Part shown: one piece after another, positions 43,768-63,789 of the stretch
Layout: each line of letters begins with the position of its first letter
Position numbering within the stretch: the stretch's first letter is position 1
DNA from: Phyllobacterium sophorae
Lineage (GTDB): Bacteria; Pseudomonadota; Alphaproteobacteria; Rhizobiales; Rhizobiaceae
DNA: 64,000 nt
Assembly (NCBI RefSeq): GCF_003010965.1
Contig: NZ_PGGM01000003.1
Coordinates: forward strand, 248,001-312,000
Direction: 5' to 3'
Notes under the pieces: generated by a model
Databases searched by the model: none
Seen by the model: the letters and a program-made list of their open reading frames with translations, nothing else
What the model was told of the DNA's origin: nothing
Made by a program: the position numbers and the translations under genes

Positions 43768-44847
43768 TTAAGATTTGACCGCGCGCAGATGTCTTTCGAG
43801 CCAGAGGCTGTAGCGGGAAGCCGAATAGCAAAGGCTAAAATAAATCAGGCCCACAAAGATATAGCTTTCGTCATAGAAACCGAGCCAGACCGGATCGTTC
43901 GCTGCGTTTTTTGCAGCGTTCAGCAGGTCAAAGATGCCGATGACCGCAACGAGAGTCGAATTGAGCAATATACCGATGGCGAGATTGACCAGAGCTGGAA
44001 TGACCGCGCGAAGCGCTTGCGGCAATACGATCAGCCGGACAATGTGCCAATAGCCGAATCCTAACGCGGAGGCAGCTTCGGCCTGGCCGTGCGGCACCGA
44101 CTGCAATCCCGCCCGTATAACTTCCGCCAAATACGCCGCAACGAATAGAGTAAGTCCGATCTGTGCACGTACCAGAGCATCCGGCGAAAATCCTGCAGGC
44201 AGCATCATCGGTACCAACAACATAGCGACGTAGAGAATGGCGATCATCGGTACGCCGCGGACCGTCTCGATAAACAGGATGGACAATGTTCGCAGACCGC
44301 CCATTTTGGAGCGTCTGGCCAACGCCAGAAGAATTGCGATCGGAAAAGCGCAGGCGAAGCCCACGACTGATATCAGCAATGTCAGCGCCAATCCGCCCCA
44401 GCGGCTAGTGGGCACCTTTGGCCCGACAAGTGTTCCTGCCATCAGCATCCACATGAGGATGACTACTCCTATCCATAGATAGACGAGATGTCTGGTCCAG
44501 AACTTCGGCGTCCCGGTTATCACCAATAACGAAGCAAGAAGCCCAATTACCAATGTAGGACGCCAATCCAGTTCGGGTGGATATAGGGCAAAAAGGATAA
44601 ATCGAAGTTTCGCACCGATGAATGCCCAGCAAGCGCCTGTGTTCGAGGCGCAGTCCTTGGCGCTACCCGTCCAAGTGGCGTCAAGGAAGAGCCAACGTAA
44701 GAGAGATGGGACAGTCCAGAACAGCAAGGCAACTACGAACACGGTGATCAACGTGTTGAGGGGCGTGCCGAACAGACCATAAAGCCATTTCTGCCAAATT
44801 TGCCGCCATTTCATTTTCCTGGCGAGAGGATCAACCGCTGAATTCAT
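43768..44847 (-). CDS. polar-amino-acid ABC transporter permease, AapM type
   Basis: 359 aa. Like AapM it has an extended N-terminal half with extra helices before the standard HisMQ-type core, which contains FIETVRGVPMIAILY and EAASALGFGYWHIVRLIVLP. It is the last gene of the operon binding protein, AapQ-type, AapM-type; the start overlaps the previous stop by 4 bases. The ATPase gene (aapP) that normally follows is missing, and a hairpin follows instead. It should import a polar amino acid or an S-substituted cysteine derivative, the latter inferred from the neighbouring salvage genes. Confidence 0.92.
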   Translation of the reverse strand: MNSAVDPLARKMKWRQIWQKWLYGLFGTPLNTLITVFVVALLFWTVPSLLRWLFLDATWTGSAKDCASNTGACWAFIGAKLRFILFALYPPELDWRPTLVIGLLASLLVITGTPKFWTRHLVYLWIGVVILMWMLMAGTLVGPKVPTSRWGGLALTLLISVVGFACAFPIAILLALARRSKMGGLRTLSILFIETVRGVPMIAILYVAMLLVPMMLPAGFSPDALVRAQIGLTLFVAAYLAEVIRAGLQSVPHGQAEAASALGFGYWHIVRLIVLPQALRAVIPALVNLAIGILLNSTLVAVIGIFDLLNAAKNAANDPVWLGFYDESYIFVGLIYFSLCYSASRYSLWLERHLRAVKS

Positions 44848-46049
44848 CGTGGGAGAAATCCCCGGCTTTCGATGCGCTGGTTATAACGATTCATGATTGC
44901 TGACACCGCAAGATTAAGCGTGAGATAGGACACCACGATAATCGCAAGTGCCTCGAGGACCTGACCGCTCTGGTTGGCAGTGGTGTTGAGTACGCTGACA
45001 AGATCGGGAAAACCGATGGCGACGGCGAGGCTGGAATTCTTTGTGAGGTCGAGATAACTCGATGTCATCAATGGGATGATGACCCTCAGCGCTTGCGGCA
45101 AGATCACCAGCCGCATGATCTTCCCCGGCTGCAACCCGAGCGAACGCGCAGCCTCCCACTGCCCTGCGGGTACCGACTGGATCCCGCTCCGGACAATTTC
45201 AGCTATCGTCGCGGACGAATTTACCACCAGTCCGATCAGCAGCGCGGCAAATTCGGGGGTGAGATTAAGACCACCGGTTATGTTGAAACCACGAAGTGCC
45301 GGAACGTCGATGTTCGCCTGCGCTCCTCCGAAGAGGAACGCCACGACGAAACCCAGTAACGCAAGAAACACAACACCCCAAGGTCCGATGCGTTCTATTG
45401 GCTTCCCTGTCCGGTAGCGTGCAAGAGAAAGGGCCGCCGCAAAAACGATTAAGATCGACAGCACGACAGCCGATATCGAAAGGCCCTCTACTCGCAGACT
45501 CGGAACCGAGATACCGCGGTTGCTTAAAAAGATCACGCCAAACGGGTTGAACGCCTGGCGCGGTGCGGGGAACGCATGTGTGACGGCACTCCAGAAAAAC
45601 AACTGCAGCAAAAGCGGTGTGTTTCGCACGACTTCGACATACCAGCGGACCAGGCCTGCCAGGAGAAAATTGCCGGAAAGCCGCGCTATCCCAAGAGAGA
45701 CGCCGACTACCGTAGCCAGAACACATCCGGAGAGAGCTATTGCGATAGTATTCAATAGTCCCGCTAGCGCGGCTCGCCCGAAAGTGTCGCTCGGCGCATA
45801 GGCGATCAAGCTTTCTCCAATCGCAAAATTGGCGCTTTGATGCAGGAAGCCGAAACCCGGTGTGATACCCAACCGGTGCATGGTCTGGACCGTGTTCGAT
45901 CCCATCGCCCAGAATATCGCCAGCAGCCCGATAAGGACCGCAAACTGGGTCACCGGATAATGGCCCCACCAACTCATAAACGCGTTGAAAATGCCGGAGC
46001 CTTTCGGACCCGGCATTGATTGCTTCAGTGTCGTTGAATCCGCAGACAT
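44844..46049 (-). CDS. polar-amino-acid ABC transporter permease, AapQ type
   Basis: 401 aa from ATG 46049; the frame extends about 180 bases further into the binding-protein gene without a plausible start. The long N-terminal region with helices (FAVLIGLLAIFWAMGSNTVQ) and the core with VRNTPLLLQLFFW and EAARSLGLQPGKIMRLVILP match AapQ. It lies 19 bases after the binding-protein gene and is co-translated with the AapM-type gene. Aap transporters have broad amino-acid specificity; the specificity here is not known. Confidence 0.9.
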   Translation of the reverse strand: MSADSTTLKQSMPGPKGSGIFNAFMSWWGHYPVTQFAVLIGLLAIFWAMGSNTVQTMHRLGITPGFGFLHQSANFAIGESLIAYAPSDTFGRAALAGLLNTIAIALSGCVLATVVGVSLGIARLSGNFLLAGLVRWYVEVVRNTPLLLQLFFWSAVTHAFPAPRQAFNPFGVIFLSNRGISVPSLRVEGLSISAVVLSILIVFAAALSLARYRTGKPIERIGPWGVVFLALLGFVVAFLFGGAQANIDVPALRGFNITGGLNLTPEFAALLIGLVVNSSATIAEIVRSGIQSVPAGQWEAARSLGLQPGKIMRLVILPQALRVIIPLMTSSYLDLTKNSSLAVAIGFPDLVSVLNTTANQSGQVLEALAIIVVSYLTLNLAVSAIMNRYNQRIESRGFLPR

Positions 46050-46068: not shown

Positions 46069-47112
46069 TCAGCGGAACGGCGGCGAATAAAGCAATCCGC
46101 CCTGCGTCCAGGGCTGGTTATAGCCGCGCTCAAAGCCGACAGGCGATCCCTTGCCGATGGTGCGATCAAAAATCTCGCCGTAATTGCCGAGGGTCTTGAC
46201 GATATTATAGGCGAACTTGGGATCAAGGCCGATGGCTTCTCCGAGCGAAGGATCTGTGCCCAGGAAGCGGCTGATCGCGGGATCTTCGCTGTTCAGGAAT
46301 GTGTCGACATTGTCCTTGGTAATGCCGAACTCTTCGGCCTGGATGGTCGCATAGACAGTCCAGTTGACAATCTCCAGCCAGCGGTCGTCGCCGGCGGCGA
46401 TTGCCGGAGCCAGCGGTTCTTTCGACAGGCGTTCCGGGAGGAGGACATAGTCATCCGGTTTTGCCAGCAGCGTGCGTCTCAAAGCGAGGTCGGAAGCATC
46501 CTGCGTCAACGCATCCACCCGGCCAGACTCAAGTGCCTTCAAGAATTCATTGCTGTCCTCGATCGTCACCGGGGTGAATTTATGTCCAGTCTTGCGGAAG
46601 AAGTCAGCGATATTCAGTTCACCCGTCGTTCCACTTTGCACACCGATCGTCGCGCCGTCGAGTTCGCTGCCTTTGGTAACGCCGAGCGACTTGTTCACCA
46701 GTAACCCCTGCCCGTCATAGAAGATCGTCGGACCAAAATGGAAGCCGAGTTTGAAGGCGCGGGTGACCGTCTGAGTAACCCCGGAAAGCAAGATATCGAA
46801 CTCACCCGACTGAAGTGCGGGCAGACGCTGTTGCGGCGACGACGATGTGAATTCAACCTTGTCGGGATCATTGAAGACAGTGATTGCCAGAGCCCTGCCG
46901 AACTCGACAAAGAACCCCTGCCACTTGCCGTTGCTGTCGGGCGCAAAAAATCCGGGCGACGTGCCCACACCGACCTTGATTGTGCCACGCTCCTTGATCT
47001 TGTCGAGCGTTGGCCCCGCCTGAACACCGTTGGCAAATAACGTTGCGATGGCCACCAGGCCTGCCGCTGCTGTTGCTCGCCATACCCTGTGGCGTCCGTT
47101 TTCTGTTCGCAT
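46069..47112 (-). CDS. polar-amino-acid ABC transporter substrate-binding protein, AapJ type
   Basis: 347 aa from ATG 47112, shortly after GGAGAG. A Sec signal peptide ends near VQAG at about residue 33. The chain fits family-3 amino-acid binding proteins of the AapJ size class: IKERGTIKVGVGTSPGFFAP, a GATIGVQSGTTGELNIADFF hinge region, and the C-terminal NYGEIFDRTIGKGSPVG motif. It is the first gene of its operon. The AT-rich region 47260-47340 probably carries the promoter. Its ligand may be an S-modified or acetylated amino acid given the salvage genes immediately upstream. Confidence 0.91.
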   Translation of the reverse strand: MRTENGRHRVWRATAAAGLVAIATLFANGVQAGPTLDKIKERGTIKVGVGTSPGFFAPDSNGKWQGFFVEFGRALAITVFNDPDKVEFTSSSPQQRLPALQSGEFDILLSGVTQTVTRAFKLGFHFGPTIFYDGQGLLVNKSLGVTKGSELDGATIGVQSGTTGELNIADFFRKTGHKFTPVTIEDSNEFLKALESGRVDALTQDASDLALRRTLLAKPDDYVLLPERLSKEPLAPAIAAGDDRWLEIVNWTVYATIQAEEFGITKDNVDTFLNSEDPAISRFLGTDPSLGEAIGLDPKFAYNIVKTLGNYGEIFDRTIGKGSPVGFERGYNQPWTQGGLLYSPPFR

Positions 47113-47367: not shown

Positions 47368-47910
47368 TCAAGCGGCATGCGTCTTTAATATGTCCGTTCC
47401 TTCGCTCGCCATCAGGCAGCCTTCGGTAAAGTGGCTAATGTCCTTTTCAAAAGCCAGGTGGCCATAGATTTCCGGGTCGACGTTGACGTCAAAAAGAGCG
47501 GTATAGCCGGAACGGAGGTATAGCTGGGTGGCCTCCGGCTGGCGGAATCCCGTGGTGAGATAGATGCGGGAATAGCCCTGGCGCGCCGCTTGTGCCTCCA
47601 GCTCATAGACCACTTTGCGGGCCAATCCCTGCTGGCGCAGATCGGCATGGGTCCAGATGCGCTTCAACTCCGCTGTCCGGCCGTCATAACGCTTGAACGC
47701 ACCGCCGCCGATGGTCTCGCCGTCGCGGATCAGCAGGAGAAAAGCGCCGTGCGGCGGGGCAAAATATTCGGCCGGGTAACGGCTGAGCTCATTGCGGGCC
47801 GGTTCGCCGAAATAATCGCCGTAGCGGCTTTCATATTCGTGGATCAAAGCCTCGATGAGCGGCTGGGAGCGCTCGTCGTCTGGAGTCGTGTAAACAAAGA
47901 CATCAGTCAT
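47368..47910 (-). CDS. GNAT N-acetyltransferase, candidate S-modified-cysteine acetylase
   Basis: 180 aa. The acetyl-CoA fold is clear: LLLIRDGETIGGGAFKRYD, then ELKRIWTHADLRQQGLARKV (motif A) and the C-terminal TQLYLRSGYTALFDVNV. It is the last gene of an operon with an M20 hydrolase and two luciferase-like monooxygenases. The same set occurs in the Bacillus ytm/ytn module, where the GNAT proteins SnaA/SnaB acetylate S-methyl- or S-succinyl-cysteine. By that analogy it would N-acetylate an imported S-substituted cysteine in the cytoplasm. Activity is inferred from context. Confidence 0.85.
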   Translation of the reverse strand: MTDVFVYTTPDDERSQPLIEALIHEYESRYGDYFGEPARNELSRYPAEYFAPPHGAFLLLIRDGETIGGGAFKRYDGRTAELKRIWTHADLRQQGLARKVVYELEAQAARQGYSRIYLTTGFRQPEATQLYLRSGYTALFDVNVDPEIYGHLAFEKDISHFTEGCLMASEGTDILKTHAA

Positions 47911-47934
47911 GATTGCCTCGTGCCGTTTAGAAAT

Positions 47935-49116
47935 TCAGGATGGATTATTGGAGAGGTATTGCTCGGCCAGTTTGACCCAGTAGCGGGACGCCGGGCCGAT
48001 GATCTCGTCGTTGAAGTTATAAAGCGGACTATGCAGAGGCGCGCTGTCGCCATTGCCGATGAAGAGGTAGCTGCCGGGAATTTCCTGCAGCATGAAGGCG
48101 AAATCCTCGCTGGCGGAAATCGGTCGGAACTCGTTCTCGACCCGTGAGGCACCGAAGTGGTCAAGCGCCACCTGCCGCGCAAATTCGGTCTCGTCCGGGT
48201 GATTGACGAGGACAGGATAGCCGCTCGGGTAGTCGATCTCGGCGGTTGCTCCGTAGCTTTCTGCCTGCGCCGTGGCCAGTGCCTTGATGCGGGCCCTGAT
48301 CTTTTCGCGCACTTCCGAGCGAAAGGTGCGGACCGTCAGTTCGAGTTCGACTCTGTCGGGAATGACGTTCGGCGCGATGCCCGCATGAATGGTGCCAACT
48401 GTGATGACGGCCGCATCCAGCGGATCGATGTTGCGCGCGACGATGCTCTGCAGCGCCATGATCAGCGAGGCGCTGGCGACGACAGGATCAACTGTTTCCT
48501 GTGGCCGTGCTCCATGACCGCCCTTGCCGACAATGCGTATGGTGACCTTATCAACGGAGGCCATGGCGGGACCGGTGATGAAGCCGAACTGCCCCGCCGG
48601 CACGCCTGGCCAATTGTGCAGGCCGAACACCGCGTCACAGGGAAAGCGCTTGAACAGCCCATCCCTGATCATGCTGCGTGCGCCAGCGCCGCCCTCTTCC
48701 GCCGGCTGGAAAATCAGATTGAGCGTCCCGGAGAAATCGCGGGTTTCGGCGAGATAGCGCGCACTGGTTAGAAGGATAGACGTGTGGCCGTCATGCCCGC
48801 AGGCATGCATTTTTCCCGCATTGCCGCTGGCATAGGAAAGACCTGTCGCCTCGGCAATGGGCAGGGCATCCATATCGGCGCGAATGCCAAGGCGTCTGGT
48901 GCCGTTGCCGCTTTGCAGCGTTCCGACGACGCCGGTGCCACCAACGCCCCTGGTAACCTGATAGCCCCAGGCGCTCAGTCTGTCGGCAACGAGTTCGCTG
49001 GTCCGGTGTTCGTTATAGGCGAGTTCCGGATGGCGATGCAGGTCGCGGCGAAGCGCGACCGCCTCATCGAGATAGTCGCCGATCTTCGCTTCCGCGTCGT
49101 CCGCTTGTCGTCCCAT
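47935..49116 (-). CDS. M20 family amidohydrolase (HipO/SndA-like deacetylase)
   Basis: 393 aa metallo-amidohydrolase of the M20D group. Metal ligands are in HACGHDGH (residues 104-111), the PAEEGG motif gives Glu140-Glu141, and GLHNWP, GKGGHGARP (dimerisation domain) and SASEDFAF complete the pattern. Such enzymes remove acyl groups from N-acyl amino acids. Its start overlaps the stop of the monooxygenase gene (TGATG), and the GNAT gene follows after 24 bases. In the Bacillus pathway the equivalent enzyme deacetylates N-acetylcysteine after oxidation, so the same role is proposed here. Confidence 0.92.
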   Translation of the reverse strand: MGRQADDAEAKIGDYLDEAVALRRDLHRHPELAYNEHRTSELVADRLSAWGYQVTRGVGGTGVVGTLQSGNGTRRLGIRADMDALPIAEATGLSYASGNAGKMHACGHDGHTSILLTSARYLAETRDFSGTLNLIFQPAEEGGAGARSMIRDGLFKRFPCDAVFGLHNWPGVPAGQFGFITGPAMASVDKVTIRIVGKGGHGARPQETVDPVVASASLIMALQSIVARNIDPLDAAVITVGTIHAGIAPNVIPDRVELELTVRTFRSEVREKIRARIKALATAQAESYGATAEIDYPSGYPVLVNHPDETEFARQVALDHFGASRVENEFRPISASEDFAFMLQEIPGSYLFIGNGDSAPLHSPLYNFNDEIIGPASRYWVKLAEQYLSNNPS

Positions 49117-50474
49117 CAGGCTGCATTCTCCTTGACGGCAGCACGTTCCGGTGCTGCTTCCGGTTGTCTCGCATAGCGGCTTTCGCGGAACGGGAGACCA
49201 AGGTTTTCCCGTAAGGTGGTGCCCGGCAAAACGGAACGGTGATGACCTCGCTCCTCAAGGATGGGCAGGACGAACTGGGTGAAATCATCGAGCCCGGCCG
49301 CCAGAATCTGAAAACCGAGAATGAAACCGTCAGCAGCTTCGGTCTCGATCCAGCGGATCAGCTCATCGGCGATCTTTTCCGGCGTGCCGGTGAACGCATT
49401 GCGCGGTGTTGTCACTTCCAGCGCGACCTCACGCAGGGTCTGGTTTTTCGCCTTGGCGTTGCGCTTGATGCGATCCGTCGTCGAGCGGAAATTATTCTTG
49501 CCAATATCACCTAGCTCGGGAAATGGAGCGTCGAGCGGGTAGGCGCTGAAATCGTGGTGATCGAAGAAGCGGCCGAGATAGGCCAGCGCCTCGTCGACCG
49601 TGACAAGATCGCGGATCTCGCGATATTTCGCTTCGGCTTCCTCTTCCGTGGAGCCGACGATGGGCGCGATGCCCGGGAAGATCAGCACGTCGCCGGGCTT
49701 GCGCCCATGCGCCACGGCACTCTCCTTGACGCGGCGGTAGAAGGTCTGTGCTTCCTCGATCGGCACATGATTGGTAAAGACGCCATCGGCGTGCTTGCCG
49801 GCAAGATCGATGCCGTCATCGGACGAGCCGGCCTGGAAAACCACGGGCTGGCCCTGCGGCGAGCGGCCAATATTGAGCGGGCCCTCCGAGGTGAAGAACC
49901 GGCCGTGATGGTTGAGCTTGTGCAGCTTGGCCTTGACGAAGAACTGACCGGTTGCGCGGTCGCGGATGAAGGCATCATCGTCCCAGGAATCCCACAGCCC
50001 CTTGACCACATCGAGGTGCTCTTCGGCGATATCGTAGCGCAGCGCGTGGTCAGGATGCTCGCGGCCGTAATTCTTGCCGGAGCCTTCCAGCGGCGAGGTG
50101 ACGGCGTTCCACCCTGCCCGCCCGTTGCTGATCTTGTCGATCGATCCGAACTGCCGGGCGACGGTGAAAGGGTCGCTGTAGGACGTCGACAATGTGCCGA
50201 CCAGACCGAGTTTCGAGGTTGTCGCGGCCAGTGCCGAAAGGATCGCGATCGGTTCGAAGCGGTTGAGAAAATGCGGAATGGATTTCTCGTTGATGTAGAG
50301 CCCGTCAGCGATGAAGGCGAAGGCAATGCCGGCGGCTTCCGCCTTTTGCGCCTGTTCCACATAGAAACGGAAGTTGACGCTTGCGTCTGGCGGTGAACTT
50401 GGATGCTTCCACGAGTTCATGTGGCTACCCGGGCCCTGCAGCATGATTCCGAACCGGACAGGTTTCTTGCTCAT
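49116..50474 (-). CDS. LLM-class flavin monooxygenase, NtaA/SnaA/DszA family (CmoJ-like)
   Basis: 452 aa luciferase-like monooxygenase. Key blocks are [20 protein letters not shown] at the start, [40 protein letters not shown] and [20 protein letters not shown]. It resembles YtnJ (CmoJ) of Bacillus, which opens S-substituted N-acetylcysteines by oxidation using FMNH2 and O2. It is co-translated with the M20 gene and follows a second luciferase-like gene by 16 bases. The ribosome site AAGGAG precedes its ATG. The exact bond attacked is not shown by sequence. Confidence 0.93.
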
Positions 50475-50490
50475 CTGAGAATCTCCTTGG

Positions 50491-51498
50491 TCATGCGGCC
50501 GCGGCGGCGAATTGTGCCTGCGCCAGCAGTTCGATCGATGCTAGCCGCTGTGCAGCATCGTTAATCGGGGTATCGATGATGAATTCGCGGATACCGTATA
50601 GCTCATGCAGACGGCCAAGCTCGCTGGCCACTTTTTCTGCCGAACCACGGATCACGTTCGCGACCTTGTTTTCAACGTGATAGTCACGCACTCCTGCCTG
50701 ACGCACATATTCGTCGACCTGTTCCAAACTGCCGACCGTGACGCTTTGACCATTCCTCACATGGATCTTGAAATGTTGGAGATCACCCGCCAGCCGTTCC
50801 GCCTCGGCATCGGTTTCGGCAGCAACGACGCCAAGGGCCAGTAATGGTGCGCGCCCGGCAGTCTGCTCGCGGTAGGCAGCGAGTGTTTCCCTCAAGACTT
50901 CTTCATCTCCATTCAAGTGACTGGCAAACACGAAATCCCAGCCTTGCGCGGCGGCAAGTTCTGCGCTGTCGATACTCGCGCCAAGTAAGAAACGCTGTGG
51001 GGATACGGTCGGCCGCGGCGTTGCTTGTACTCCCGTAAGCGGGTGAGCGGACGGCAAGGTATTGTCGAGAAAAGCATTCAGCTGAGCCAGCTGCGCGGCG
51101 AAATCCTGCTTCTCGGGCCGGGGAAGCAATCCTTGGAGAGCGCGTGTCGAGAAGGGCAAGCCGCCGGGTGCTTTGCCCACGCCAAGATCAACCCGGTCAG
51201 AGCCAAGCGCTGCCAGAACGTTGAAATTCTCTGCCACCTTGTAGGGGCTGTAATGCTGCAGCATTACGCCGCCGGAGCCGATGCGGATTCGCGATGTATT
51301 GGCCAGCAGAAAGGCGATCAGAACTTCCGGCGATGAACTTGCGACGCGCAACGTATCGTGATGTTCGGCAACCCAGAAGCGGTGGAATCCCCACTGTTCA
51401 GCCTTTCGGGCTAAAGCAACAGTGCGTTTGAGGGCGGCGCTTGCCGTCTCTCCTTCGAATATCGGACTCTTGTCGAGCAGACTGAGCGAATAACTCAT
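50491..51498 (-). CDS. LLM-class oxidoreductase, MsnO8/YtmO (CmoO) type
   Basis: 335 aa from ATG 51498, which has GGAGG about eleven bases upstream; two further in-frame starts lie within 102 bases. It begins [20 protein letters not shown] and contains [20 protein letters not shown] and [20 protein letters not shown], the single-domain luciferase-like pattern of the MsnO8 group to which Bacillus YtmO belongs. It opens the minus-strand operon monooxygenase, monooxygenase, M20, GNAT. The divergent gene is a 2-oxoglutarate oxygenase. Flavin dependence comes from family knowledge. Confidence 0.9.
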
Positions 51499-51982
51499 CT
51501 GGATAGCGGCCTCCATTGCATTAGGACGCGGTCCAGCCTCGATGCGGCGGGTGCGTCGTCTTGAGGCCGTAAGACTCCATCCAGAATCGATTTCGGTCAA
51601 AGAACAGATTGCTAAAATGACGCATCGGGTTGGAAATCCATTAACAGCGAGGTCGTTTTCGCAACTCGATAGCGAGCGGTTCTCGTCTAGTCCTAGCGAA
51701 GGACAGCTTGGCTCATTCTTCCGGACTGAATGACATTCGAGGCGTTGCAGGTGCGATTCTGAATCAGTGTTTACACATGGGCCTCATGTTTATTTTTTAT
51801 ATTTCGTTAGCGGACAAACCGCTTATTTCTATGGGCAGCTTTCCTGTAGGAATGACGTACCTCCTTATCCACGTCCCGGTTTCGTAGAGTAGCAAACGGC
51901 GTAAATCGTATGCCGCGCGGCCCGAGATTTCTTAACTTGGATGCCAAGGCCACACCAAAGATCGAACGATGGAGTTCTTAAC
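51499..51982. other. divergent promoter region, monooxygenase operon and oxygenase gene
   Basis: 484 non-coding bases. A T-rich tract at about 51787-51808 (including TTTATTTTTTATATTTCG in part) is the best promoter-like stretch. TTCTTAACTTG occurs twice, at about 51929 and 51975, the second directly at the oxygenase start. No gene or clear palindrome is seen. Confidence 0.4.
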
Positions 51983-53020
51983 TTGCCAGTCTCACCTCAA
52001 TCCTTGCCCGTTCTCGACTTGAGACGGTTCGCACCGGATCATCCGGAACGCGACATCGCTCTCACGGAGTTGCGCGGCATCGCCCGAACGGTGGGCTTCT
52101 TCTATCTGGACGGACATGGCGTTCCCCAGAATCAAATCGACGGCATCCTCAGTCTTTCACGCCGTTTTTTCTCGCTGCCGGAAGCAGCCAAGCTCGAAAT
52201 CGAGATGCGCAAGTCGTCCCATTTCCGCGGTTACAACCGCGCGGGTCTGGAATTTACCAGAGGAACGCAGGATTGGCGCGAGCAGGTCGACTTCGGCGCA
52301 GAACGGGAAAAGCCTGATATCAAGGCCGGCGACGCACCGTGGAAAAGGTTGATCGGGCCCAATCAGTTTCCGTCTGCTCTGCCCGAACTTAAACCAGCCG
52401 TCCTTGAGTGGATCAGCATTGTCACCAAGCTGGGTATTCAGGTCATTGAAATATTCTCCGAGGCGCTCGGTCAACGTCCCGATGTTTTCGAACCCATCTA
52501 TCGCGAAGGCCCAAACCAGCTCTTGAAAATCATCCGCTATCCCGGTCGCGACAAGACGGAAACCGATCAGGGAGTTGGCGCGCACAAAGACGGTGGCTTC
52601 GTGACTATCCTCTTGCAGGACGTTGTCGGAGGACTTCAGGTAGACGACGGCAACGGTGGCTGGATCAGTGCGCCACCAAAGCGCGGGACATTCGTAATCA
52701 ATGTCGGTGAACTCCTCGAATTGGCATCGAACGGTTATCTGCGCGCCAATATCCACCGCGTTGTGACACCGCCGGCAGGCGGAGATCGCCTTTCCGTTGC
52801 GTTTTTCCTTGGGGCCAACCTGGCATCAACGATTCCTGTATTGGACCTACCGGCCGAGTTTGCTGCCGAAGTCCGGGGTGTAACCCATGACCCGCTCAAC
52901 CCTCTTTTCCATGAAGTCGGTCGCAACGCCCTAAAATCGCGACTACGGTCGCACCCGGACGTAGCCGCCGCGCACCATTCCGATCTTTTGGAGCAACAGA
53001 ACGCCGCCGTTCCAGTCTGA
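51983..53020 (+). CDS. 2-oxoglutarate/Fe(II) oxygenase, isopenicillin-N-synthase-like
   Basis: 345 aa from TTG 51983, eight bases after GGAG; an ATG at 51941 would add 14 residues of poor quality. The N-terminal DIOX_N region (LPVLDLRRFAPDHPERD, GFFYLDGHGVP) is followed by the double-stranded beta-helix core. The iron ligands are His201-x-Asp203 (HKD) and His258 (NIHRV), and Arg269-x-Ser271 binds 2-oxoglutarate. It is intact and divergent from the monooxygenase operon. Bacterial members hydroxylate or cleave small molecules, including sulfonates and N- or S-alkyl compounds; the substrate here is unknown. Confidence 0.9.
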   Translation: MPVSPQSLPVLDLRRFAPDHPERDIALTELRGIARTVGFFYLDGHGVPQNQIDGILSLSRRFFSLPEAAKLEIEMRKSSHFRGYNRAGLEFTRGTQDWREQVDFGAEREKPDIKAGDAPWKRLIGPNQFPSALPELKPAVLEWISIVTKLGIQVIEIFSEALGQRPDVFEPIYREGPNQLLKIIRYPGRDKTETDQGVGAHKDGGFVTILLQDVVGGLQVDDGNGGWISAPPKRGTFVINVGELLELASNGYLRANIHRVVTPPAGGDRLSVAFFLGANLASTIPVLDLPAEFAAEVRGVTHDPLNPLFHEVGRNALKSRLRSHPDVAAAHHSDLLEQQNAAVPV

Positions 53021-54051: not shown

Positions 54052-54061
54052 TTTTCCTCCG

Positions 54062-56194: not shown

Positions 56195-56815
56195 ATGAAC
56201 ATAAGTGTAGTGAGGGAGCCAAGCGATCCTGGCGGCATTTCCAGCGCGCCCAAAAACGAGTTGATCCGCGTTGCCGGCGACCGCGATGCGCCCGCGTTGC
56301 TGGAACTTCTCCTCACTGCGTATGAGCCCCTTCGGGAAATGCAAATCCGCTTTTCCGCGACAACAGCCGATATCGAATTGGTACAGCGCACCATCAGACG
56401 TCACACGACCTTTGTTATCGAGCGCCACGGAACGATCATCGGAACTGTCTCAGTACGATTTCCCTGGCCGATGGGCGAAACCCATTTGACCAGCTACCCG
56501 TTCATCCACTGGTTTGCCGTGGCCCCGACGTTCAAGCGCCAGGCTGTCGGAACGACACTCCTCGATCATGTAGAGCTCAATTTTCTGCGCGATCAGATTA
56601 AGGCCCCCGCCGTTTATCTCGCTACGGCAACCCGCCATCCTTGGCTCGTGGGGCTTTACGAAAGGCGTGGATATGAAGGGTTCCACAAGCAAGTGAACCG
56701 GGGTGATGAGGTGCTCTACCTGCGAAAAATTCTCAACCCTGAAATCTATGACGACCTGGAAGTCCGCGAACACAAACACTTTGGCATCCATACCCCGACG
56801 GCGCTGCAAGCGTAA
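56195..56815 (+). CDS. GNAT N-acetyltransferase
   Basis: 206 aa from ATG 56195, four bases after GGAGTGAG. A single acetyltransferase domain with FVIERHGTIIGTVSVRFPW, IHWFAVAPTFKRQAVGTTLL (motif A) and LVGLYERRGYEGFHKQ at the end. It heads a plus-strand cluster with two binding proteins, two permeases, a double ATPase and a luciferase-like monooxygenase. Pairing of GNAT and luciferase-like genes recalls the S-cysteine salvage modules, so an imported amino compound may be acetylated before oxidation. The substrate is unknown. Confidence 0.85.
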   Translation: MNISVVREPSDPGGISSAPKNELIRVAGDRDAPALLELLLTAYEPLREMQIRFSATTADIELVQRTIRRHTTFVIERHGTIIGTVSVRFPWPMGETHLTSYPFIHWFAVAPTFKRQAVGTTLLDHVELNFLRDQIKAPAVYLATATRHPWLVGLYERRGYEGFHKQVNRGDEVLYLRKILNPEIYDDLEVREHKHFGIHTPTALQA

Positions 56816-56858: not shown

Positions 56859-58496
56859 ATGCCTATGAACAGACATCGCCTGAGTCCAGCCGCAGCAGTG
56901 CTAGCTGTTTCTCTCTCGCTTTTGGTCACCTCGGACATCCGAGCAGATACGGCCGGATCACCGGTCGAAGGAGGATCATTGACTTGGGGTGTTGAGACCG
57001 AACCAGCAACACTCAATCCTCATCTCAACGGACAAGCCAAGACCAAACTGCTGCTGCGTAACGTGTTCGAGTCGCTGCTTGCCCGAACCGCGGACGGCGG
57101 TTACGTGCCCTGGCTTGCCACCGGTTACAAGATTTCCGATGACGGACAGACATATGTCTTCAACCTTCGCGGCGACGTAAAATTCAGCGATGGCACTAAG
57201 TTAGATGCTGGGGCGGTGGTAACGAACCTGGTCAAACTCAAGGACCCGGCTTACTCTGGGAGCATCAGCGCTGGGCCCATCTCTCACTTGGCAGAGGCTA
57301 AAGCCCTGGATGATCTGACTATCGAATTAACTCTCAAGCAGCCCTACGCGCCCTTCCTTGAATTTGCATCAAGTCTTGAGATTGTCTCGCCTGCGGCATT
57401 TGCCTCGACACAGATGAAGTCAGGCGGGCCTGGCGTTGCAGGTACAGGACCCTTTATCCTCGATCGCTACACCAAGGGTCAGGAAATCCATTTCGTCAAA
57501 AATCCGGACTATCGGTGGGCACCCTCGACGGCTGCCCATCAAGGTCCAGCCTATCTCGATGAAGTCACGTATCGCTTTCTGCCGGAATCGTCCGTGCGCA
57601 CCGGGGCCCTCACGTCGGGACAAGTCGATTTGATAGAAGGAATTTCAGGAAACGATGCTTCGCTGTTCCGCGACAATTCCGAATTCAGCTATCAGAGCGC
57701 CTTGAACACAGGCACCCCCTATTCACTGTTCCTCAACTCGACTTTTGGGCCGACTGCGGATGTCAGGGTACGCAAGGCACTGATCGCCTCAGTCGACCTC
57801 AAGGCGGTACTGAAGTCGGTTTATCGCGGTGAACGAAAGCGGGCATGGGGAATTACCTCGCCGATCGACACGAAACTCTACGATGCCAGCATCGAGAGCA
57901 GCTACGGCAACGATCCAAAACTCGCTAATCAACTGCTCGACGACGCAGGTTGGACTGTACGTGACACTGGGGGTTATCGAAGCAAGGACGGCGAGCGACT
58001 GACAATCGAAATTGTGCAAGCGCAAGCCACGGTGCGCGACCAGCGCGATGTTTTATTGCTGGCATTGCAAGCTCAAGCGAAACAGCAGGCGGGCATTGAC
58101 CTACGCATTGCCTATGTCGACGCCGGAACTTACGCCGACCGTCGTTCCAGCGGAAAATTCGGCTCCATTCCCAATTCAAGGACTCCGGCTGGGGATGGAT
58201 ATGACATCGAATATCATTACCTGCCAATCGATCAGGGTGGATCGGTTAATTACAGCCGCGCTGCAGCTCCGGAGCTTTTGAATTGGCTGCAGGCTGCGTC
58301 ATCGACCTTGGATCAGAAGACGCGTTTTGACCTGTACGCACGCCTGCAGCGCTTCGCCATCATCGACCAGGGATATGCGCTGCCGCTTTATGTGCCTGAC
58401 GACCAGATCGCCGCTGCCGTCGCGGTACAGGGCGAAGGGTTTCGCCCGTTCCACCAACTGCCCGAAAATGCCTACGACATCTGGTTGAAACGGTAG
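56859..58496 (+). CDS. ABC substrate-binding protein, family 5 (first of a tandem pair)
   Basis: 545 aa with a Sec signal peptide (LSPAAAVLAVSLSLLVTSDI, cleaved near RADT). The mature start VEGGSLTWGVETEPATLNPH and TYVFNLRGDVKFSDGTKLDA are typical of DppA/NikA-like proteins. The next gene encodes a close paralogue: most of the two mature sequences is identical when aligned by eye. It lies 43 bases after the GNAT gene and is followed by the second copy and by dppBC/DF-type genes. The ATG chosen has GAGGAAA upstream; a second ATG six bases later is possible. Confidence 0.92.
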   Translation: MPMNRHRLSPAAAVLAVSLSLLVTSDIRADTAGSPVEGGSLTWGVETEPATLNPHLNGQAKTKLLLRNVFESLLARTADGGYVPWLATGYKISDDGQTYVFNLRGDVKFSDGTKLDAGAVVTNLVKLKDPAYSGSISAGPISHLAEAKALDDLTIELTLKQPYAPFLEFASSLEIVSPAAFASTQMKSGGPGVAGTGPFILDRYTKGQEIHFVKNPDYRWAPSTAAHQGPAYLDEVTYRFLPESSVRTGALTSGQVDLIEGISGNDASLFRDNSEFSYQSALNTGTPYSLFLNSTFGPTADVRVRKALIASVDLKAVLKSVYRGERKRAWGITSPIDTKLYDASIESSYGNDPKLANQLLDDAGWTVRDTGGYRSKDGERLTIEIVQAQATVRDQRDVLLLALQAQAKQQAGIDLRIAYVDAGTYADRRSSGKFGSIPNSRTPAGDGYDIEYHYLPIDQGGSVNYSRAAAPELLNWLQAASSTLDQKTRFDLYARLQRFAIIDQGYALPLYVPDDQIAAAVAVQGEGFRPFHQLPENAYDIWLKR

Positions 58497-58548
58497 ATCG
58501 AGGCCCAATTCAAAATCTCACTCTCATCTGCGTACAGGGAATTTCATC

Positions 58549-60183
58549 ATGGACCTTATCAAACACTCATTCAGGCTCGCTGCGGCTACGTTTGCGGTCT
58601 CAGCTTTGGTTTTTAGTACTTTCAACGCCAACGCCGCAGCGGACGGTCCCCCAGTACAGGGCGGTTCGCTTATTTGGGGCGTCGAAACGGAACCGGCGAC
58701 GCTCAATCCGCATCTCAATGGTCAGGACAAGACAAAACTGCTGCTGCGCAATGTCTTCGAAACACTCCTGGCACGAACCAAGGACGGTGGTTACCTGCCG
58801 TGGCTTGCAACTGGCTACAAGATTTCGGACGACGGCAAGACCTACACCTTCACACTCCGCGATGACGTTACATTCAGCAATGGAGAGAAGCTCGACGCCG
58901 CCGCAGTTGTGACAAACTTCACCAAGCTCAAAGATCCGGCCTATTCCGGCAGCGCCAGTTCAGGGCCAGTCTCCCGTCTGGCAGATGCCAAGGCATTGGA
59001 CGAACGGACGGTCGAACTGAGCCTCAAGGAGGTCTATGCGCCGTTCCTCGACTTCGCGTCGGGCCTCGAAATCATTTCTCCCGCATCATTTGCCTCGCCC
59101 CAAATAAAGTCAGGCGGTACCGAGATTACCGGTACTGGTCCATTCATCCTTGACCGCTATGCGAAGGGTCAGGAGATACACTTTGTCAAGAATCCGAAAT
59201 ACCAATGGGCTCCCTCAACAGCGGCGCATCGGGGTCCAGCATATCTTGACGAGGTGACTTACCGCTTCCTCTCCGAGTCCTCAGTTCGTGCCGGAGCCTT
59301 GACGTCAGGACAGGTGAACTTGATTGAAGGCGTCTCGGGTAACGATGCCGGATTGTTTCGCGATGATCCCGAATACAGCTACCAAAGCGCCCTGAACACC
59401 GGAACACCCTATTCGTTGTTCCTCAATACCACCTTTGGACCGACACAGGATGTGAAGGTTCGTAAGGCTTTGATCGCCGCGATCGATGTCGATGCTGTCC
59501 TGAAGTCGGTTTACCGGGGGGAACGCACTCGTGCGTGGGGCATTACCTCGCCGGTTGATACGCAACTCTACGACGCGAGTATTGAGAAGAGCTATGGCAA
59601 CGATCCCCAGCTCTCCAACCAGCTCCTCGACCAAGCGGGTTGGACCGCGCGAGACGCTGACGGCTATCGCACCAGGGACGGCCAGCGCCTGACGATCGAA
59701 GTGGTGCAGGCCCAAGCCACGGTCCGTGATCAGCGCGATGTGTTGCTGCAGGCGCTTCAGGCCCAGGCAAAACAGAAGGCGGGTATCGATCTGACGATTT
59801 CGTACGTCGACGCCGGCACATACACTGATCGGCGCGCTACCGGGAAATTCGGTTCCATTGCGAACTCCAATACACCGACCGATGGGATCGACATCGAATA
59901 TCACTACCTGCCAATCAAGCAGGGCGGTTCGATCAACTACAGCCGTGCATCGGCTCCGGAACTGTTGGGGTGGTTGCGGGCAGCCGCCTCGACACTCGAC
60001 CAGAAGAAACGTTTCGATCTCTACGCGCGCCTGCAGCGCTTCGCCATCATCGATCAGGCCTATGCTTTTCCGCTCTACGAGCCGGAAGATCAGATCGCCG
60101 CTTCCTCGCAGGTGCAGGGAGTGAGCTTCCGGCCCTTCAAGCAACTGCCGGAGAGCGCCTACGATGTCTGGCTTAGCAAGTAG
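58549..60183 (+). CDS. ABC substrate-binding protein, family 5 (second of a tandem pair)
   Basis: 544 aa, a paralogue of the preceding gene product over its full mature length; the signal peptides differ (FRLAAATFAVSALVFSTFNA, cleaved near ANAA). Shared blocks include WGVETEPATLNPHLNGQ, VTYRFL, YSLFLN and DLYARLQRFAIIDQ. The two proteins therefore probably bind related ligands and use the same permease. It follows its twin by 52 bases and precedes the DppB-type permease by 67 bases. Duplication with divergence is the simplest explanation. Confidence 0.92.
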   Translation: MDLIKHSFRLAAATFAVSALVFSTFNANAAADGPPVQGGSLIWGVETEPATLNPHLNGQDKTKLLLRNVFETLLARTKDGGYLPWLATGYKISDDGKTYTFTLRDDVTFSNGEKLDAAAVVTNFTKLKDPAYSGSASSGPVSRLADAKALDERTVELSLKEVYAPFLDFASGLEIISPASFASPQIKSGGTEITGTGPFILDRYAKGQEIHFVKNPKYQWAPSTAAHRGPAYLDEVTYRFLSESSVRAGALTSGQVNLIEGVSGNDAGLFRDDPEYSYQSALNTGTPYSLFLNTTFGPTQDVKVRKALIAAIDVDAVLKSVYRGERTRAWGITSPVDTQLYDASIEKSYGNDPQLSNQLLDQAGWTARDADGYRTRDGQRLTIEVVQAQATVRDQRDVLLQALQAQAKQKAGIDLTISYVDAGTYTDRRATGKFGSIANSNTPTDGIDIEYHYLPIKQGGSINYSRASAPELLGWLRAAASTLDQKKRFDLYARLQRFAIIDQAYAFPLYEPEDQIAASSQVQGVSFRPFKQLPESAYDVWLSK

Positions 60184-60250
60184 CGTGCCTTATTGATCAC
60201 ACCGCTTCCGCCAATTCTATTGACGGGGATCCGTACTGGAGCAAGACATC

Positions 60251-61252
60251 ATGACATTGGATAACCCAGCATTTATTGACGAGCTTCCATTAGGGTCCCC
60301 CAGCCGCATTGTTCGCTTCCGTCATTCGTTATGGTCGCGAGTACTGGGCCGCGTAGGATCAGGGGTTGTTGTCCTGTGGGCAGCAGTCACTCTGTCCTTT
60401 GCCAGTCTCCAGATAGCCCCTGGCAACATCGTCAACCTGCTGGTCGGTGACCAGCTTCCTACGCCTGAAGTGGAAGCGGCAATTCGTGCTGAATGGGGCC
60501 TGGATGAGCCGTTGATCGTCCAGTATCTGCGCTATCTGTGGCGGATTCTCCATGGTGATTTTGGTCGCTCATATGTCCTGCAAAGCGATGTTACGTCGTT
60601 GATATTGTCACAGCTTTGGCCAACCTTGAAGTTGACCAGTGCTGCCCTGGTTGTAGCCATTGTCTTTGCGGTCACCGCTGCTGTTCTCACTGCAGGGCGG
60701 CGCTGGCCGCGGCGTCTTGCGAGCGCGGCCGAGCTTGTGCTGGTCTCCACACCATCTTTTTGGCTCGGCATCGTCCTGCTTTTCGTTTTCAGTTTCACGC
60801 TCAAACTGTTTCCTGTCGCGGGCGATAAGAATTTTTCCTCGCTTGTGCTGCCCGCGCTCTCCTTGGGGTTGTCACTTGGTGCTGTTGTCAGCCAGGTCCT
60901 GCGCCAGGGACTTGAGAACGCCTTGGAGGAACCGTTTGCGTTGACGGTTCGCAGTTGGGGTTGCAGCGATTTAACGCTGCGGCTCAGGCACTGTTTGCGG
61001 CACGCGTCGCTTCCCGCAGTGACGTTAACTGGATGGCTGGTCGGTGGTTTGTTGAGTGGGGCGGTGATTACCGAACAGGTGTTCGGACGCCCTGGACTTG
61101 GCAAAGTGACCGTCGATGCGGTTCTTGGAAAGGACCTTCCGGTGGTCTTGGCTGTCGCGATCTTCTCCGCGTTGATCTACGTGGTGCTCAGCACCCTGGT
61201 CGACCTTCTCTATCTGTTTCTGGATCCGCGCCTGCGGACACGCAACCGCTGA
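60251..61252 (+). CDS. dipeptide-type ABC transporter permease, DppB family
   Basis: 333 aa. A cytoplasmic start of about 30 residues is followed by the first helix (VVLWAAVTLSFASLQIAPGN), the conserved RAEWGLDEPLIVQYLRYLWR block and the EAA-like loop near LTVRSWGCSDLTLRLRHCL. It is part of the plus-strand cluster GNAT, binding protein twice, B, C, DF, monooxygenase. The next permease gene starts 9 bases after its stop. Length and layout are normal. Confidence 0.92.
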   Translation: MTLDNPAFIDELPLGSPSRIVRFRHSLWSRVLGRVGSGVVVLWAAVTLSFASLQIAPGNIVNLLVGDQLPTPEVEAAIRAEWGLDEPLIVQYLRYLWRILHGDFGRSYVLQSDVTSLILSQLWPTLKLTSAALVVAIVFAVTAAVLTAGRRWPRRLASAAELVLVSTPSFWLGIVLLFVFSFTLKLFPVAGDKNFSSLVLPALSLGLSLGAVVSQVLRQGLENALEEPFALTVRSWGCSDLTLRLRHCLRHASLPAVTLTGWLVGGLLSGAVITEQVFGRPGLGKVTVDAVLGKDLPVVLAVAIFSALIYVVLSTLVDLLYLFLDPRLRTRNR

Positions 61253-61261
61253 GGATCCGAC

Positions 61262-62125
61262 ATGACCTTCCAAACGAGCGTCTCCCGGAAGCACCGCTGG
61301 CATGTACTTCCACTCCTGCTGAATAATGCTGGCCTGATCGCGTCGTTTATCTTTTTGGTGCTAGTGGCATCGGTAACGATCTCACCTGATTTGTTAAGTA
61401 GCTATGATCCGATCGCTGCCGATCCGATCCAGGCACAACTGCCGCCAACCTATGAGCATTGGTTTGGTACAGATCATCTCGGCAGGGATGTTTTCTCCCG
61501 AGTGCTCCATGGGGCACGTTATTCCCTGCTTATTGGCGTCAGTGCGATGTTGATCGCCGTTGTCGTCGGATCACTGCTTGGTCTGCTTTCCGGCCTTGCA
61601 CGCGGGTTTGTTGACGAGATCATCACGCGTTTTCTTGACGTGGTCTCGGCGTTCCCTGACTTGCTGTTGGCCCTGGTTCTGATATCGTTCACGGGTCCCG
61701 GCACCTTCAACCTGATTTTCGCCCTTGGTGTCGCGTCCATTCCCCGCTTCGCCAGAGTCGTACGCGGCCAGACATTTGTTGTCGCCGAATCCGGTTATGT
61801 GGAACAAGCGAAGACGTTCGGCCTGTCACGCACAACATTAATCTGGCGTCACATCCTGCCACATGCGATCGAACAGGTCCCAATTCTGGCTACAATTGGC
61901 CTTGGAACCGCGATCATCAGTGCGGCGGGGCTCAGTTTTCTTGGTATGGGACCGCAGCCGCCCACCCCTGAGTGGGGAGCCATGCTGTCGGAAGGCCGCA
62001 ACTATCTGCGCAACGCCTGGTGGATCGGCGTATGGCCCGGCCTTGCTATCACACTCACGGTTATCTCGGTAAGCGTGGTCGGCCGCAGATGGCAGGCGGC
62101 TTTTGAAGGACGGAGGCTGGTATGA
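61262..62125 (+). CDS. dipeptide-type ABC transporter permease, DppC family
   Basis: 287 aa. The DppC motif PTYEHWFGTDHLGRDVFSRVL follows the first helix (NNAGLIASFIFLVLVASVTI), and the EAA loop reads EQAKTFGLSRTTLIWRHILP. Its stop overlaps the start of the double-ATPase gene as ATGA. It completes the membrane part of the second dipeptide-type importer in the window. The substrate is not visible from sequence. Confidence 0.92.
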   Translation: MTFQTSVSRKHRWHVLPLLLNNAGLIASFIFLVLVASVTISPDLLSSYDPIAADPIQAQLPPTYEHWFGTDHLGRDVFSRVLHGARYSLLIGVSAMLIAVVVGSLLGLLSGLARGFVDEIITRFLDVVSAFPDLLLALVLISFTGPGTFNLIFALGVASIPRFARVVRGQTFVVAESGYVEQAKTFGLSRTTLIWRHILPHAIEQVPILATIGLGTAIISAAGLSFLGMGPQPPTPEWGAMLSEGRNYLRNAWWIGVWPGLAITLTVISVSVVGRRWQAAFEGRRLV

Positions 62126-63789
62126 ACTCGCCCCGCCCCTTCCTCTATATCCGCAACTTGACCATTCGCTTCCCTGGCCCCAACGGCCCAACTGAAGTGG
62201 TACGCGGCCTTGACCTGACGGTATATCCCGGTGAGTCAGTCGCGCTGGTGGGTGAATCGGGTTCAGGCAAGTCCGTCACCGCCCGCGCTCTCATCGGACT
62301 GGCAGGAACTTACGCCGACGTTAAGGCCGACGTGTTCGAGATTAACGGCGAAGACGTTCTTCAGTATCGGGAACGCGACTGGCGTCGGCTCAGGGGCAGC
62401 AAGATCGGTTTCGTCCTGCAGGATGCGCTGGTATCCCTTGATCCGCTTCGCCGCATCGGACAGCAATTGTCGGACGCATTTGGCGAACGACAGGACCTGC
62501 CAGCCAAGTATGACCGCAGCCTCGATATTCTGCAATCCGTAGGCATCAAGGATCCCGAACGCCGTCTTTCCCAATACCCGCACCAGCTTTCGGGCGGCCT
62601 CAGGCAACGGGCATTGATCGCTACTGCGATTGCCCAACAACCGTCATTGGTGATTGCCGACGAACCTACAACCGCCCTTGATGTAACTGTTCAACGACAG
62701 GTTCTGGATCTTCTCAAACAACGACAGCGCGCCGGCAACACCTTGCTCATCATCAGCCACGATCTGTCGGTGGTCTCGCAACTTGCAGACCAAGTCTTGG
62801 TGATGAGGAATGGCGAAGTTGTCGAGCAGGGCAAAACAGCAGAGGTGCTTTCCGGGCCATCTCATCCCTACACCCGACAATTGCTGGATGCGATTCCCAC
62901 AGCAAGCTCTCGCGGCTATCGTCTTTCACCAGTGGCGCTTGAACATTCCGACGAGATATCCCTCATTGCTCCTGCCGCCGCGCCCAATGTCAGAATTGCA
63001 CTGCCCCAAAAACAAATAGACGCCGGACGCCATGTCCTGGTCGTTGATCGTCTGCAAAAACGATACGGGCGCAGCACCACCGGTCCGCTCGCGGTCAACA
63101 ACGTCTCGTTTGAACTGGCAGCCGGCGAGGCACTCGGCATCGTCGGGGAGTCGGGATCGGGGAAAACAACGGTGGCCAAGATGGTCCTGGGCCTCGTCGA
63201 TCCTGATGCGGGCAACGTATGGATCAATGGTCAGCCTTGGAGTCGAATGGATGAATCGCAGCGCCGACCCCATCGCGCCGGAATCCAATTGATCGCACAG
63301 GATTCTCTCAGTTCCTTCGATCCTCGCTACAATGTCGAGAAACTCATAGGCGAGAGCCTGGATGCCGTTGGGATCTTTGGCGACAACCGAAGACGCAGGG
63401 TACTGGAAGTACTGGATGCAGTGCGTCTGGGCCCTACCTTCTTAAACCGCCATCCACGCGAGCTATCCGGCGGTCAACGCCAAAGGGTTGCCATCGCGCG
63501 CGCTTTTGCACCACGGCCCCAGCTTTTGGTTGCTGATGAGCCCGTAAGCGCACTCGATGTTTCAATCCAGGCACAAGTGCTGGACCTGCTGGCCGAACTC
63601 CAGGCTGAATTCGGAGCGTCGTTGCTCTTCATCTCCCACGATCTGGGAGTAGTGCATCATCTCACGGACAAAGTCATCGTTATGAAAGCTGGCCAAGTGG
63701 TTGAAAGCGGCGACGTGGAGAAAGTGTTTGCGGGTCCCCGCCACAGCTACACGCAGGAACTATTAGCCGCGAGGCCCTCCTTGAATTGA
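62122..63789 (+). CDS. dipeptide-type ABC transporter double ATPase (DppD-DppF fusion)
   Basis: 555 aa with two nucleotide-binding domains. The first has GESGSGKSV, LSGGLRQR and LVIADEPTTALD; the second (from about residue 310) has GESGSGKTT, LSGGQRQR and LLVADEPVSALD. It overlaps the DppC-type gene by 4 bases and ends about 105 bases before a luciferase-like monooxygenase gene. Unlike the related protein at 39204 it stops soon after the second domain and lacks a cysteine-rich tail. Confidence 0.93.
   Translation: MNSPRPFLYIRNLTIRFPGPNGPTEVVRGLDLTVYPGESVALVGESGSGKSVTARALIGLAGTYADVKADVFEINGEDVLQYRERDWRRLRGSKIGFVLQDALVSLDPLRRIGQQLSDAFGERQDLPAKYDRSLDILQSVGIKDPERRLSQYPHQLSGGLRQRALIATAIAQQPSLVIADEPTTALDVTVQRQVLDLLKQRQRAGNTLLIISHDLSVVSQLADQVLVMRNGEVVEQGKTAEVLSGPSHPYTRQLLDAIPTASSRGYRLSPVALEHSDEISLIAPAAAPNVRIALPQKQIDAGRHVLVVDRLQKRYGRSTTGPLAVNNVSFELAAGEALGIVGESGSGKTTVAKMVLGLVDPDAGNVWINGQPWSRMDESQRRPHRAGIQLIAQDSLSSFDPRYNVEKLIGESLDAVGIFGDNRRRRVLEVLDAVRLGPTFLNRHPRELSGGQRQRVAIARAFAPRPQLLVADEPVSALDVSIQAQVLDLLAELQAEFGASLLFISHDLGVVHHLTDKVIVMKAGQVVESGDVEKVFAGPRHSYTQELLAARPSLN

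Follow-up and report, generated by a model that had tools for sequence, protein, structure and literature searches.

A probable S-alkyl-cysteine salvage operon with a proposed separate acetyltransferase subfamily in Phyllobacterium sophorae

Does an alphaproteobacterium carry the module by which Bacillus recovers cysteine from S-substituted cysteines, and if so, which of its parts are kept? The question is raised by a stretch of 64,000 nucleotides from the 6.35 Mb genome of the plant-associated Phyllobacterium sophorae (contig NZ_PGGM01000003.1, positions 248,001 to 312,000), hereafter the window. An original prediction had placed two luciferase-like monooxygenases (LLMs), an M20 deacetylase and a GNAT enzyme on its minus strand between positions 47368 and 51498, and four open reading frames (ORFs) were found there in the order CmoO, CmoJ, M20 and GNAT (hereafter the core; Table 1). 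They are spaced by 16 (CmoO/CmoJ), -1 (CmoJ/M20) and 24 bases (M20/GNAT). Curated NCBIfam cut-offs were exceeded by CmoO (TIGR03558, 347 versus 167 bits), CmoJ (TIGR03860, 513 versus 280 bits) and M20 (TIGR01891, 357 versus 154 bits), and the core GNAT scored above the threshold of Pfam Acetyltransf_1. The nearest plasmid relatives of the core are from Phyllobacterium, with DNA 77-79% identical across approximately 4 kb. Judging from sequence comparison, the four genes are likely to form an operon for the salvage of S-alkyl-cysteines.

The ytm/ytn operon of Bacillus inaquosorum (L145) was located starting from the sequence of YtnJ (1yw1), and the labels YtmO, YtmI, YtnL, YxeK, YxeL and YxeP on unannotated loci are those which we take to apply from gene order and known operon maps. 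CmoO is 45% identical over 324 aa to YtmO of B. inaquosorum, and a single strong CmoO copy was found in the Phyllobacterium genome (next best, 35%). CmoJ is closer to YtnJ (58%, 551 bits) than to YxeK (47%, 451 bits), and its matches in the PDB include YtnJ (1yw1, 563 bits) and DszA (243 bits). In a tree of 37 rows, a single clade (support 98/96) holds the window CmoJ, a further window gene named CmoJ2, the CmoJ proteins of Bacillus, Pantoea and rhizobia, and one copy each from Paenibacillus and Psychrobacillus; YxeK lies outside it. M20 is 42-43% identical to YtnL, which was the top of seven M20 matches in the B. inaquosorum genome (295 bits, versus 258 bits for the copy at the yxe locus, L185), and shares the MHACGHD and QPAEE stretches with YxeP (1ysj). 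These matches back the predicted assignment of CmoO, CmoJ and M20 to the ytm/ytn pathway. Of the predicted substrates, S-methyl- and S-succinyl-cysteine, the second is the less likely one, given that CmoJ has its higher identity with YtnJ and that YxeK lies outside the CmoJ clade; S-alkyl over S-succinyl substrates are thus favoured on the placement of CmoJ.

In Bacillus, as an excerpt of a 2023 paper describes it, S-alkyl-cysteine is acetylated, CmoO forms the sulfoxide, and CmoJ cleaves this by a flavin-dependent Pummerer rearrangement into an aldehyde and a sulfenic acid, followed by reduction and deacetylation (PMC10863075). The N-acetylcysteine deacetylases named in an excerpt of a second paper are YtnL, YhaA and ScmP (PMC12757645). 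In the window, the GNAT would acetylate the amino group of S-alkyl-cysteine, and CmoO, with reduced flavin mononucleotide (FMN), would convert the N-acetyl-S-alkylcysteine to its sulfoxide. CmoJ would then cleave the C-S bond of the sulfoxide, yielding N-acetylcysteine sulfenic acid besides an aldehyde. Reduction of the sulfenic acid, by thiols of the cell or by another reductase, would give N-acetylcysteine, which M20 would deacetylate to cysteine. The CmoO, CmoJ and M20 steps are most likely as in Bacillus, by homology, and the acetylation step is most likely that of the GNAT, by gene neighbourhood. The glutaredoxin-like gene that had been predicted to be missing is indeed so: no YtnI homologue was found in the window (E<=1e-3), nor did tblastn at E<=1e-3 give a match in the window plus 14 other loci. 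Homologues of RibR, YtnM and YtlI, looked for in the window, were likewise not found. Since the 2023 paper, in the same excerpt, calls the S-alkyl-cysteine pathway widely distributed in soil bacteria (PMC10863075), its occurrence in an alphaproteobacterium is expected.

The core GNAT was searched against 297 genomes of the order and 297 of the family. It matched 11 of the former (E<=1e-15) and 25 of the latter (E<=1e-30), own genome included in both counts, and is therefore a minority gene. A sample was then formed of the 30 different genomes with a match at E<=1e-30, own excluded; weak matches in G052 and G261, which have no core genes, were left out, and second GNAT copies in G519, G567, G576 and G581 were not counted. 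The order CmoO-CmoJ-M20-GNAT on one strand was found in 27 of these 30 genomes, which makes the four-gene cluster more than chance. The GNAT stands beside CmoJ in all 30 genomes, and CmoO is retained in 29. A full-length permease/ATPase fusion, 66-92% identical to that of the Rhizobium plasmid pRL10, directly follows the GNAT in 30/30; one or two binding proteins lie downstream of it in stretches long enough to show them, and a third LLM enzyme lies within 9 kb in 19/30. Two small genomes (G366 and G569; 1.9 and 2.4 Mb) carry the run CmoO-CmoJ-FMN reductase-GNAT, in which a MsuE-like reductase replaces M20 (L122, L131). Among plasmids, the GNAT matched 311 of 72,556 records (E<=1e-5); identity was >=60% in 153 of the 311, and the leading genera were Rhizobium (128) and Pantoea (75). 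Eleven plasmid regions were hand-picked from the 311 matching records and examined: all four genes lie within 6 kb in eight, and the strict gene order occurs in six, namely R. johnstonii pRL10, R. etli p42c, S. fredii, A. vitis and two Phyllobacterium.

Several observations speak against a salvage operon. Three of the 30 genomes have no gene for one core member beside the GNAT: an FMN reductase stands where M20 is expected in G366 and G569, and no CmoO occurs in the stretch from G567. In three of the 11 chosen plasmid regions (Streptomyces, A. ampelinum and R. leguminosarum Gr 12/7) a homologue of the core GNAT is present, but M20 is missing from the 6 kb around it. The top PDB match of CmoJ is 3sdo (660 bits), deposited under the title nitrilotriacetate monooxygenase. 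Finally, M20 enzymes and GNATs are broad families, and the acetyltransferase role of the core GNAT is proposed from a single kind of evidence, its gene neighbourhood.

The acetyltransferase is also where the core departs from Bacillus. The prediction had counted the GNAT as part of the gene content shared with Bacillus, which did not hold: in blastp within a small GNAT set its similarity to YtmI (E 1.2) and YxeL (E 0.03) is at chance level. A core GNAT orthologous to YtmI or YxeL was ruled out on these values; the family member in the window is another gene, GNAT2 (at 56195), which is 43% identical to YtmI over 167 aa and 43% to YxeL over 161 aa, the two Bacillus proteins being 44% identical to each other. 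Searching three Bacillales genomes with the core GNAT (E<=0.01) gave a best match of only 33% over 79 residues. The core GNAT is 68-70% identical to the GNAT of the pRL10/p42c-type Rhizobium operon, and the family to which it belongs (GNAT-A) has 45 invariant columns in an alignment of 16 rhizobial, Pantoea and Streptomyces sequences. A third group is made up of the GNATs that accompany CmoJ in Paenibacillus and Psychrobacillus (L148, L149): the Paenibacillus protein is 56% identical to the two from Psychrobacillus and 19-21% to GNAT2 in the alignment, and matches the window core GNAT at E 8e-4 or worse. We propose that the core GNAT represents a separate acetyltransferase subfamily in place of YtmI/YxeL. 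If it acetylates S-alkyl-cysteines, the protecting step would have been drawn from unrelated GNAT subfamilies more than once.

A possible source of such compounds is offered by plants. Common bean accumulates gamma-glutamyl-S-methylcysteine, the bulk of its S-methylcysteine store, and some free S-methylcysteine (PMC6572574, in excerpt), and p42c, a plasmid of R. etli CFN 42, bears the operon. In pRL10, p42c and 18 other Rhizobium plasmids, the GNAT is followed on its own strand, at a distance of 8 to 13 kb, by a ChaC-like gene (PF04752); this was worked out by hand for p42c and for the 19 records present in both the GNAT and the ChaC listings. The ChaC-like enzyme could open gamma-glutamyl compounds or glutathione conjugates. 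No ChaC homologue was found in the window, so this idea concerns the rhizobial operon and extends to the window by analogy only. We tentatively suggest, as a possibility, that GNAT-A is a previously unrecognised S-substituted-cysteine N-acetyltransferase that rhizobia, Pantoea and others use in place of the YtmI/YxeL type, and that the plasmid operon is a plant-niche nutrition trait by which rhizobia feed on S-methylcysteine from legumes and on gamma-glutamyl-S-methylcysteine once the linked ChaC-like enzyme has opened it. The bean store of gamma-glutamyl-S-methylcysteine and the p42c operon together provide a testable nutrition hypothesis for common rhizobial plasmids. The pathway itself is already known; the rhizobial operon with its unrelated acetyltransferase appears to be new, and no description of either was found in open PMC papers.

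Other uses of the four genes were weighed. Plant S-alkyl-cysteine sulfoxides (e.g., S-methylcysteine sulfoxide) might be used directly, with the GNAT acetylating them, CmoJ cleaving them and CmoO auxiliary. This reading overlaps with S-alkyl-cysteine salvage and is favoured by the sulfoxide being the CmoJ substrate (PMC10863075, in excerpt) and by a Pantoea agglomerans plasmid from an onion bulb that carries the set (L036). We nevertheless consider it unlikely, as the retention of CmoO in 29/30 genomes indicates that thioether oxidation matters and, among the best 40 of the 311 plasmid records, the plant host was nearly always a legume where one was named. Similarly doubtful, and again overlapping with salvage, is that the module handles conjugates of foreign electrophiles with cysteine (mercapturates) and not a natural sulfur source. 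The Bacillus pathway is drawn with S-benzylcysteine in the excerpt of PMC10863075, and ChaC-like genes lie downstream in many Rhizobium plasmids, but the window has no ChaC homologue and the amino-acid-type importer conserved beside the core (30/30) fits the uptake of an external nutrient. It is rather improbable that the GNAT and M20 act on non-cysteine compounds and that other organosulfur compounds are the sulfur source tapped by the two monooxygenases. NtaA/DmoA members act on many compounds, as PDB names also indicate, and 11 NtaA-family matches over the cut-off occur in the genome; against this stands the conserved co-occurrence with a CmoJ-clade enzyme, a YtnL-like M20 and an amino-acid-type importer. 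Very improbable is a yxe/scm-type breakdown of S-(2-succino)cysteine (2SC) by acetylation, monooxygenation to oxaloacetate plus N-acetylcysteine, and deacetylation, which has the identical acetylate-cleave-deacetylate logic (PMC12757645, in excerpt) and an M20 that also resembles YxeP (39%) besides a CmoJ 47% identical to YxeK, but is opposed by a CmoJ nearer YtnJ with YxeK outside its clade, by a CmoO that has no homologue in the yxe region (L185), and by a core GNAT that is not of the YxeL type.

The S-alkyl-cysteine salvage reading leaves the importer to be accounted for. An amino-acid importer had been predicted after the core, minus its ATPase, and both points were confirmed: an SBP_bac_3 protein and two amino-acid permeases (aapJQM) follow on the same strand, and no ATPase gene follows aapM in the window. 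The accompanying idea of a streamlined Bacillus module was not upheld, the importer appearing to be a neighbour swap, with the permease/ATPase fusion kept by 30/30 other genomes. A trimmed Bacillus-type importer was ruled out by that fusion and by aapJQM standing apart elsewhere; TcyL is only 29-37% identical to the window permeases. No close copy of the fusion was found in the own genome (best near-full-length match 43%), and its best matches in the window are partial (36-39%). Both a GNAT and a close aapJ occur in five other sampled genomes (G357, G381, G445, G504 and G558), in all of which the two lie on different contigs or approximately 44 kb apart; in G357, of the same genus, the GNAT is on contig C22 and aapJ (91%) on C15.

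The gap between the GNAT and aapJ measures 255 bases with the aapJ ATG used, at 42% GC. Approximately 150 bases upstream of the window aapJ (from about 47265) match DNA upstream of aapJ in G357, where this region is not preceded by a Cmo core; for 16 other aapJ relatives the similarity to the window is confined to the gene. The similarity of the window to GNAT loci stops inside the GNAT gene, near 47430. Because the upstream DNA matches that of aapJ in G357 and the similarity to GNAT loci ends within the GNAT, it is probable that aapJQM is served by a promoter of its own and that a rearrangement brought it next to the core, with one relative as the basis. A consensus scan found no promoter-like or terminator-like site on the minus strand of the gap, which counts against aapJ as a unit of its own; the same scan gave about as many promoter-like sites as the shuffles did on average, and more terminator-like ones (11 versus a mean of 5.0, standard deviation 2.3).

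Loci were inspected for eight of the 17 aapJ matches (own excluded), and in none of these eight is the gene next to aapM a same-strand ATPase gene. Fusion matches near aapJQM loci L139-L142 are 35-45% identical, the nearest one on the same strand lying at least approximately 2 kb beyond aapM (L140). Two complete aap loci in the own genome (L143, L144) have an ATPase after aapM that is 50% identical to the fusion. The core in this genome lacks the permease/ATPase importer that its relatives have, and it is probably served by other amino-acid importers; import may be through the adjacent aapJQM, with either of the complete aap loci supplying the ATPase.

Table 1. Positions of the core genes and of neighbouring features in the window (identities are to the same-genus genome G357)
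Feature	Position	Strand	Basis and remarks
CmoO-like MsnO8-family flavin monooxygenase	50491..51498 (ATG at 51498)	-	TIGR03558, YtmO likeness
CmoJ/YtnJ-like NtaA-family flavin monooxygenase	49116..50474	-	TIGR03860, YtnJ likeness
M20 amidohydrolase, proposed N-acetylcysteine deacetylase	47935..49116	-	TIGR01891, YtnL likeness
Core GNAT (GNAT-A type), proposed S-substituted-cysteine N-acetyltransferase	47368..47910	-	Pfam Acetyltransf_1, neighbourhood
aapJ-like amino-acid substrate-binding protein	46069..47112	-	SBP_bac_3; ATG checked; outside conserved module
aapQ-like permease	44844..46049 (ORF reaches 46226; ATG at 46049 used)	-	BPD_transp_1; 72% to aapQ of G357
aapM-like permease	43768..44847	-	83% to aapM of G357
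Conserved element TTTTAGCAANNNNTTCTTTGAC, putative promoter or regulator site	51596..51617	-	~119 bases upstream of CmoO
GNAT2, YtmI/YxeL (SnaA/SnaB) family acetyltransferase, start of second module	56195..56815	+	
Second module: two OppA-type binding proteins, DppB, DppC, DppDF peptide importer	56859..63789	+	

GNAT2 heads a second module (Table 1). CmoJ2, the additional member of the CmoJ clade, begins at 63895, and CmoJ2 together with NtaA3 continues past the window edge (L053, 3896-6593). In G357 the order aapJQM-CmoO-GNAT2-OppA-OppA-DppB (L135) suggests the origin of the aapJQM genes of the window. Three further loci, from G581 (L134), A. ampelinum (L038) and R. leguminosarum Gr 12/7 (L040), have the same Opp module with NtaA3 (63-81% identical) beside a CmoO and a GNAT-A type gene; GNAT2 was not found in any of the three. 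GNAT2 and GNAT-A may therefore catalyse the same step, since either fills the one slot of the Opp module, which is the best evidence for it, although circumstantial. This is weakened by the nearest CmoJ-like genes in L038 and L040, which are only 36% identical to CmoJ2, and by the L038 protein falling outside the CmoJ clade. As no CmoO belongs to the second module and a single strong CmoO occurs in the genome, we infer that the two modules may share it.

The element TTTTAGCAANNNNTTCTTTGAC occurs exactly in the window and in four near relatives (L033, L035, L111, L112), other upstream stretches reaching 9-12 of 18 at best, and is single in the genome at up to two mismatches. An operator-like inverted repeat, TCTA-N9-TAGA, was found exactly in 12 of 44 stretches upstream of CmoO (shuffle mean 0.2), at -44 to -63 of CmoO in L032, L034, L048, L050, L113, L114, L116, L117, L119, L121, L125 and L128; the count is not one of independent cases because the genomes are related, and the repeat is absent upstream of the window CmoO. 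Head-to-head with CmoO lies a 2-oxoglutarate (2OG)-Fe(II) dioxygenase gene (51941-53020, plus strand), a 61% homologue of which is likewise divergent upstream of CmoO in G203 (L049).

Elsewhere in the window, a homocysteine S-methyltransferase-like gene, an amino-acid permease and a binding protein (53089-55733, minus strand; no ATPase gene listed between) may serve S-methylmethionine use. Positions 33327-41000 hold an NtaA-family monooxygenase, a DUF427 protein, an OppA-type binding protein, two permeases and a fused DppDF ATPase. Several of the 11 NtaA-family matches in the genome lie close together, and one appears only as two joined stretches. Two adjacent genes at 9027-11899 (plus strand) presumably resemble part of an ABC-three-component type defence system; on a plasmid of Phyllobacterium zundukense (L035), an annotated system of this type is located close to the core.

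How near, then, does the core come to known systems? The predicted near-identity with the gene content of the Bacillus ytm/ytn module applies to CmoO, CmoJ and M20 and fails for the acetyltransferase and the importer. With ytm/ytn (sna/cmo/snd/tcy) of Bacillus subtilis the window shares CmoO, CmoJ and a YtnL-like deacetylase, with an acetyltransferase and an amino-acid importer in or near the set. However, its core GNAT is from another subfamily, the SnaA/SnaB-family member (GNAT2) sits outside the core, and aapJQM without an ATPase takes the place of a TcyJKLMN-type importer with one. The Bacillus yxe/scm system (YxeK, YxeL, YxeMNO, YxeP) has the acetylation-cleavage-deacetylation logic, an NtaA-family monooxygenase and an M20 in common with the window, which differs in having CmoJ and not YxeK, in the presence of CmoO and in a YxeL-type GNAT outside the operon. 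Pantoea plasmid clusters (L036, L042) likewise bring together CmoO, M20, CmoJ, a GNAT of the GNAT-A type and an amino-acid importer, but in another gene order and with permease and ATPase unfused; in the tree, the CmoJ of L036 falls with the window CmoJ2. The Rhizobium plasmid operon (pRL10, p42c) reads CmoO-CmoJ-M20-GNAT-permease/ATPase-SBP-SBP-LLM3-DsbA-MsuE ... ChaC (SBP, substrate-binding protein), and has the same four genes in the same order as the window, where the fused importer and the genes following it are missing beside the core. Across these systems, a fixed part of the pathway (CmoO, CmoJ and the N-acetylcysteine deacetylase) is set apart from the parts that are exchanged, the acetyltransferase and the importer.

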